A stretch of DNA of 12,240 nucleotides from a bacterium (GTDB taxonomy: Bacteria > Electryoneota > RPQS01): contig JAQTRJ010000030.1 in assembly GCA_028711875.1 (NCBI GenBank), forward strand, positions 1 to 12,240. The letters are read 5' to 3'. The first letter of the stretch is position 1, and every line of letters begins with the position of its first letter. Position numbers and translations under genes: made by a program. The notes beneath the pieces are model-generated. The model made no database searches, had not been told where the DNA came from, and was given only the letters and a program-made list of their open reading frames with translations. This document shows positions 8,926 through 9,056 of the stretch, one piece after another.

Positions 8926-8959
8926 CCCTTTAATCCGGTCCCCGCGAGGACAGAAAGGG
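8926..8959 (+). promoter_or_regulatory. Candidate PyrR-binding hairpin in pyr leader
   Basis: A two-part hairpin: lower stem CCCTTT (8926-8931) with AAAGGG (8954-8959), an asymmetric internal loop (AATCCG on the left, AG on the right), upper stem GTCC (8938-8941) with GGAC (8948-8951), and hexaloop CCGCGA. Known PyrR binding loops share this layout and a conserved CC-N-G-N-GAGG tip; here it reads CC-C-CGC-GAGG, one base longer. The AAAGGG arm is also the ribosome-binding site of the leader ORF at 8965, so the folded hairpin would hide it. It lies just upstream of pyrR itself. The function is inferred from fold and context. Confidence 0.6.
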
Positions 8960-8964
8960 CGGTT

Positions 8965-9045
8965 ATGAACACAACAATGAACGATTCCAGTCCCTCCCCA
9001 CGGCAGTCGAGGGACTTCTCTCTGTCTGCTCATCTTCTCCCGTAA
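8965..9045 (+). CDS. 26-codon pyr leader ORF
   Basis: A short ORF beginning [15 protein letters not shown] and ending at TAA 9043-9045. AAAGGG sits 5 bases before its ATG, a better ribosome-binding site than pyrR itself has, and the stop is 11 bases before the pyrR ATG. The ORF covers the whole of the 8989-9016 stem-loop, so a translating ribosome would prevent that stem from forming. The peptide has no recognisable domain and is probably unimportant in itself; the act of translation would be what matters. This is the arrangement proposed for the Thermus pyr leader. Expression is not shown by sequence alone. Confidence 0.55.
8989..9016 (+). terminator. Candidate attenuator terminator in pyr leader
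   Basis: A perfect 8-bp inverted repeat, AGTCCCTC (8989-8996) and GAGGGACT (9009-9016), with a 12-base loop, followed by a pyrimidine-rich tract (TTCTCTCTGTCTGCTC). The tract is not a pure T run, which weakens the case for an intrinsic terminator. GAGGAC (8946-8951) of the upstream hairpin could pair instead with GTCCCTC (8990-8996) with one bulged C, giving an alternative antiterminator fold. Confidence 0.5.
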
Positions 9046-9056
9046 CAACGGATACC

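Follow-up and report, generated by a model that had tools for sequence, protein, structure and literature searches.

The window analyzed here, a stretch of 12,240 nucleotides, carries on its + strand an mrp-like gene, a sufT-like gene, a leader region, pyrR, pyrB and pyrC, in that order. The sufT-like gene (DUF59/SUF-associated; 8611..8910, + strand) matched the NCBIfam models TIGR02945 and TIGR03406, both below their cut-offs. Matches above cut-off were obtained for pyrR (9057..9605, + strand; bifunctional regulator/uracil phosphoribosyltransferase, NF003549), pyrB (9602..10549, + strand; aspartate carbamoyltransferase, NF002032) and pyrC (10558..11868, + strand; dihydroorotase, TIGR00857). 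The pyrR product scored 245.1 bits against NF003549 (cut-off 138) and matched the solved B. subtilis PyrR (1a3c, E 7e-59) as well as 1ufr, named pyr mRNA-binding attenuation protein (E 1.4e-62), and on these matches it is PyrR. Among the best 80 of 125 relatives, the nearest named ones by PyrR were labelled Calditrichaeota, “bacterium” or candidate division KSB1. The sufT gene lies directly upstream of the leader in all 11 family leaders, at a gap of 15–57 nt. A simple scan listed no sigma-70 promoter at 8500-9500, and the pyr operon may be transcribed by readthrough from mrp-sufT or from a promoter within sufT.

Fifteen nucleotides after the sufT-like stop codon, positions 8926..8959 (+ strand) can be drawn as a hairpin with a lower stem of CCCTTT (8926-8931) and AAAGGG (8954-8959), an upper stem of GTCC (8938-8941) and GGAC (8948-8951), an internal bulge separating the two stems, and the hexaloop CCGCGA (8942-8947). 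In the excerpt of PMC7430163, the B. subtilis PyrR loop consensus likewise comprises a hexaloop, an upper stem, a bulge and a lower stem. From that excerpt and from the relatives we read the hexaloop as CNGNGA, a form that is our own and that CCGCGA fits; the stem sequence differs from the B. subtilis consensus as given there, with pairing kept. All of these elements were found at the window site, which we take from its sequence to be a PyrR-type loop of the ordinary kind.

The covariance search proposed alongside the first-pass annotation did not recover this site. An Rfam scan of the window gave no match to RF00515 (PyrR element) at E ≤ 1, and in none of the 11 family genomes did a site exceed the gathering threshold (54 bits), the only one seen being sub-threshold (39.7 bits, genome G007), so that the Rfam model misses the sites of a whole family. 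Because Rfam was blind to the site, we wrote a loop descriptor and built a separate model, R1. The 198 loci with a pyrR match gave 185 distinct leaders, and the descriptor, which was composed after viewing the leaders of relatives, matched 115 of these, against none of the 185 reverse-complemented leaders and 1 of 925 dinucleotide-shuffled ones. By the descriptor or a rescue pattern, 132 leaders carried the loop. The leaders of eight same-phylum pyrR homologs (L105, L108, L110, L114-L116, L118, and L119) showed no PyrR loop by our finder. The 165-nt leader is no more stably folded than its shuffles (z -0.68; 48/200 equally stable), so the evidence for the loop lies in its conservation and not in folding stability.

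Model R1 was built from 30 loops, and 150 candidates were scored per genome. At E ≤ 0.01 it found one site each in 18 of 39 phylum genomes and none in the other 21. The window loop (E 1.8e-4) was the only site in its own genome at this threshold, and by their coordinates all 18 sites precede pyrR, at distances of about 60 to 520 nt. Four family genomes without an R1 site (G002, G004, G007, and G009) nonetheless show the loop in their leaders.

Covariation was assessed in the 55 of 113 distinct loops that are 31 nt long and start with CC; L133 was out of register and was dropped. Standard pairs occupied 96.7% of pair cells, compared to 84.8% in shuffles, the covariation score was 0.411 against 0.178, and 73 cells were changed on both sides against 22.0. 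Two-sided change was found in five of the six upper-stem pairs. Two of the five measures were not above shuffles, namely the number of pairs with two-sided change (matched by 101/500 shuffles) and the number of further pair types (113/500 as high). The compensating changes that had been sought in CCCTTT/AAAGGG were absent, as the lower stem is invariant in 55/55 aligned loops, partly because CTTTAA...AAGG served to select and trim the loops. Descriptor conservation and upper-stem covariation, together with the R1 site, thus bear out the first-pass annotation in placing a PyrR-type loop at 8926-8959, and its coordinates were right.

The AAAGGG of the 3′ arm (8954..8959, + strand) is also the putative ribosome-binding site (RBS) of a leader ORF of 26 codons plus stop (8965..9045, + strand). 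Its ATG (8965-8967) follows after 5 nt, in agreement with the overlap of arm and RBS noted earlier, and its TAA (9043-9045) ends 11 nt before the pyrR ATG at 9057. RBS-ATG spacing was 4-8 nt in the seven family leaders that carry the ORF. PyrR loops carry an AAGG arm whether or not an ORF follows, and an RBS embedded in the loop is therefore not diagnostic by itself. The ORF was instead tested by asking for an ATG placed 0-9 nt behind the loop whose frame stays open into the hairpin, with dinucleotide shuffles giving the expectation. The set comprised the 117 loop leaders with a hairpin, 113 of which have it within 110 nt, reduced to 104 non-redundant leaders. Group labels were assigned by hand from locus titles and search centers, and L020 and L026 were placed in the “rest of phylum” group provisionally.

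An ATG with an open frame was present in 55 of the 104 leaders compared to 12.1 expected. Within the family the count was 7/11 (1.3 expected, p 1.5e-4), in the Ignavibacteria-type group 29/47 (4.9 expected), in Verrucomicrobiota 11/12 (1.9 expected), in Omnitrophota 2/2 (0.3 expected), in the sister family 1/2 (0.2 expected) and in the rest of the phylum 4/16 (1.7 expected, p 0.08). The Bacillota control gave 1/11 (1.6 expected), Actinomycetota 0/2 (0.5 expected) and Nitrospirota 0/1 (0.1 expected). The leaders are related and were treated as independent, so these shuffle probabilities are too small. The frame of the ATG was open in 55 of 62 leaders, whereas the other two frames were open in 52 of 124. 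Family leaders often have the other two frames open as well (10/14), and the signal there is one of ATG placement (7 against 1.4 expected). The leader ORF is therefore kept in relatives beyond chance, in 7 of 11 family leaders, but four lack it.

Leader peptides are dissimilar within the family. In L001 and its congener L002 the ORFs have 26 and 24 codons, and each ends in CCCGTAA. The feature that is kept seems to be the open frame and not a coded amino-acid signal. RBS-like words stood at 14/53 gene starts of the window genome (7/53 shuffled) and at 33/80 in genome G001 (27/80 shuffled); in the start-site pairing profile, a dip near -9 was seen for G001 (n = 29) but no clear one for the window genome (n = 20). 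In PyrR-free RNA, the predicted cost of freeing the leader RBS was 4.8 kcal/mol in the window. The median cost was 4.3 kcal/mol for the 62 ORF leaders and 3.9 for the 51 others, so it does not single out ORF leaders. A cost of this size would probably allow some initiation that a bound protein could easily shut off.

Within the ORF lies a putative attenuator terminator (8989..9016, + strand; predicted -13.2 kcal/mol), with an 8-bp stem, a 12-nt loop, and the arms AGTCCCTC (8989-8996) and GAGGGACT (9009-9016). The sequence places this stem-loop exactly where it had been annotated. The tail that follows (9017-9041, TCTCTCTGTCTGCTC) is T-poor and weak, and a simple scan limited to loops of 3-8 listed no terminator here. 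Ordinary T-tracts are present in the relatives L002, L004, L005, and L011. The hairpin of the window begins 24 nt past the ATG, and in 7/7 family ORF leaders this distance is 22-24 nt.

By its anatomy and the conservation of the ORF, the leader would thus have the RBS of a leader ORF inside a PyrR loop and a terminator overlapped by that ORF, the Thermus-type arrangement. We consider it probable, from the sequence, that the window leader is a PyrR-controlled, ribosome-gated attenuator. At high UMP, PyrR-UMP would clamp the loop and shut the RBS, leaving the leader untranslated; the hairpin would then form and transcription would stop ahead of pyrR. At low UMP, ribosomes would open the loop, at the predicted cost of about 4.8 kcal/mol, and translate into or through the hairpin, which a translating ribosome would keep unfolded, so that RNA polymerase could continue into the operon. 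Ribosomes that finish the leader 11 nt upstream may feed pyrR too, whose own RBS looks weak. A pause of RNA polymerase in the leader, which was not part of the scheme first put forward, is probably needed, because the hairpin starts so soon after the ATG. Of that scheme, the loop, the pyrR-pyrB-pyrC order, the kept ORF, the lack of a predicted antiterminator (below) and the RBS cost stood, while the Rfam search, the lower-stem covariation and the four of 11 family leaders without an ORF did not support it.

Where the ORF ends relative to the hairpin was determined for 69 ATG leaders, drawn from the 113-leader set with near-copies included: beyond it in 50, within it in 8 and before it in 7, the remaining 4 being unassigned. 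In L004, L005, L127, L129, and L137, the ORF stops in the 5′ arm or loop of the terminator and does not cross it; a ribosome stopped there would still block the hairpin. Five of the 69 ATG leaders have the leader ORF in the reading frame of pyrR. In the family the ORF mostly ends ahead of pyrR, and many Ignavibacteria-type and Verrucomicrobiota leaders show a 4-26 nt overlap between its stop and the start of pyrR, an arrangement suggestive of translational coupling. In L021-L024, L145, L151, and L157, where the ORF stop also overlaps the pyrR start, the 3′ arm of the terminator (GGAGG) resembles a pyrR RBS.

These junctions, with the short distance and the weak pyrR RBS in the window, would also suit a PyrR that is purely a translational repressor: covering the leader RBS would lower the coupled translation of pyrR, and the hairpin would be incidental or would end the mrp-sufT transcript, whose last gene lies just 15 nt from the loop. 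Eight actinobacterial leaders also speak for this explanation, as their loop 3′ arm precedes the start of pyrR itself and no hairpin was found. However, 117 of the 132 loop-bearing leaders have a hairpin with a T-rich tail separating the loop from pyrR, also in lineages where other genes lie upstream. We regard repression of translation alone as unlikely; it is not exclusive of ribosome gating. In the eight actinobacterial leaders (L051-L053, L060, L061, L063, L069, and L070) the 3′ arm is AAGGAGG, its AAGG lies 13-15 nt ahead of an ATG that shares the pyrR frame, and the loop there seems to cover the RBS of pyrR itself.

A classical Bacillus RNA switch, in which the 3′ half of the loop pairs with the terminator 5′ arm unless PyrR prevents it and the ORF is incidental, was examined by cutting the transcript after the terminator 5′ arm and predicting its nascent fold. 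In the window the loop was kept and the 5′ arm stayed unpaired, with a gain of 0.0 kcal/mol, so that no antiterminator of the Bacillus type (loop 3′ half with terminator 5′ arm) is predicted there; the departure from that type claimed by the first-pass annotation is in line with this predicted fold. The loop/leader duplex of the window (-12.2 kcal/mol, z -0.5) was no better than in shuffles, a fraction of 0.285 of which were as good, although by eye GAGGAC can be paired with GUC-CCUC if one bulge is allowed. The z-score of the loop/5′-arm duplex was too noisy for sorting leaders into antiterminator and ORF types. Among the four family leaders that lack the ORF, the predicted folds of L008 and L009 clearly have an antiterminator (gains of -6.8 and -6.3 kcal/mol; 6 and 7 pairs with the loop), which lends this explanation some weight; L007 paired 7 bases at -0.9 kcal/mol, and L010 formed 1 pair at -3.2 kcal/mol. 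L003, which carries the ORF, had 8 of its 5′-arm bases paired to the loop (-3.2 kcal/mol), and the remaining family members with the ORF formed 0-2 pairs with gains of 0.0 to -2.3 kcal/mol. Over all leaders, the test separates the two groups modestly, the median gain being -1.9 kcal/mol with an ATG (n = 69; at least five arm-loop pairs in 13) and -3.3 without (n = 44; at least five in 14). For the window we judge a Bacillus switch distinctly unlikely. What would differ from Bacillus is that the output of the loop is wired to the ribosome instead of to an antiterminator.

Several observations count against ribosome gating, namely the weak tail, the four of 11 family leaders without an ORF, the 7 of 69 ORFs that end before the hairpin, the pairing in L003, the often open other frames in the family, the modest separation of the two leader groups in the nascent-fold test and the equivocal RBS signal at the gene starts of the window genome. 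In E. coli, moving a terminator to 5 bp after a stop codon lowered its efficiency from about 90% to below 10%, which speaks for gating, whereas the tR2 terminator 30 bp after an AUG, when translated, lost only about 10% (excerpt of PMC4824070). The efficient tR2 at 30 bp, set beside the 24 nt of the window, counts against gating without a pause. According to the same excerpt, transcription pausing couples the pyrBI and amino-acid leaders (PMC4824070).

The weak tail and the closeness of sufT to the loop also leave room for Rho or for upstream readthrough. Termination might be Rho-dependent, with the pyrimidine-rich untranslated tail as a Rho site, or pyrBI-like, with RNA polymerase slowed at low UTP so that ribosomes catch up, and the loop would then modulate leader translation. 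The stretch from the hairpin to the leader stop is pyrimidine-rich, G-poor, covered by the ORF and weak in its U-tract, as this would have it. The pyrR gene and the conserved PyrR-type loop argue against such a device, as do the ordinary T-tracts of L002, L004, L005, and L011 and the lack of a U-run between ATG and hairpin in the window, and we hold it to be very improbable. At E. coli pyrBI the signal is UTP-dependent pausing, and there is no PyrR, unlike in the window. The excerpt of PMC5021804 describes a leader ORF there (pyrL) whose translation across an intrinsic terminator prevents termination and permits readthrough into the pyrimidine genes; in this the window would resemble it.

Returning to ribosome-gated attenuation by PyrR, the closest known system is the pyr leader of Thermus strain ZO5, for which Van de Casteele et al. 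in 1997 reportedly proposed that a translating ribosome, and not an antiterminator, prevents termination. To our knowledge, this control was proposed without direct proof. The window would be a further case of the coupled mechanism proposed for Thermus, sharing with the ZO5 leader, as it is described, PyrR, a pyrR-pyrB-...-pyrC operon, and a leader ORF with a terminator, putative in the window; it differs in belonging to another lineage, in having pyrB and pyrC adjacent and in being known from its sequence alone. In mycobacteria and other actinobacteria, PyrR controls the translation of pyrR, the loop 3′ arm being an RBS that PyrR can hide. That RBS is said to be the one of pyrR itself, unlike in the window, where it belongs to the leader ORF and the ORF crosses the putative terminator. 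With the B. subtilis pyr attenuators, as covered by the excerpt of PMC7430163, the window shares a PyrR homolog, a CNGNGA loop with stems and bulge, and a terminator (putative in the window) before pyrR; it differs in lacking a predicted antiterminator and in having a leader ORF over the terminator. The window genome holds one loop by model R1, compared to three attenuators in B. subtilis.

The interest lies in the spread of the layout and in its exchange with antiterminators. The 55 leaders with the layout, out of the 104 in the non-redundant set, come from several phyla, and in close relatives the same loop carries a predicted antiterminator. On a PyrR tree (FastTree, 113 leaders) we counted 19 changes between ORF and no ORF against 37.4 with shuffled labels, at least 13 of the 19 being forced by well-supported branches; the ORF label is thus clustered on the tree yet has changed often. 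This count is probably overstated, since in three Ignavibacteria-type leaders scored as ORF-less (L124, L130, and L133) the loop is followed at 0-1 nt by a TTG. We lean slightly towards the view that the PyrR loop is an exchangeable sensor, whose leader-ORF output gates a terminator in KSB1-like, Ignavibacteria-type, Verrucomicrobiota and Omnitrophota bacteria and has been swapped with an antiterminator several times, even within one family. A literature search, with subscription journals mostly outside its scope, found PyrR leader ORFs reported for none of these four groups, and no account of an exchange between leader ORF and antiterminator within one family. If this view is right, ribosome-gated PyrR attenuation would rank, outside Bacillota, among the major modes of pyrimidine control and would not be a Thermus curiosity. 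Such leaders lend themselves to experiments on how a single protein-RNA sensor comes to be connected to one output or the other, and recurrence across phyla makes an old, little-tested idea of pyrimidine control testable.

A further group was noted by eye in the Ignavibacteria class (L138, L140, L144, L147, L167, L168, L171, L172, and L179), where the loop reads ...GAGGTGGA.AAGG and a near-complement such as CACCTCAC follows within about 30 nt. This arrangement looks antiterminator-like, and in several of these leaders pyrR lies 170-250 nt downstream.
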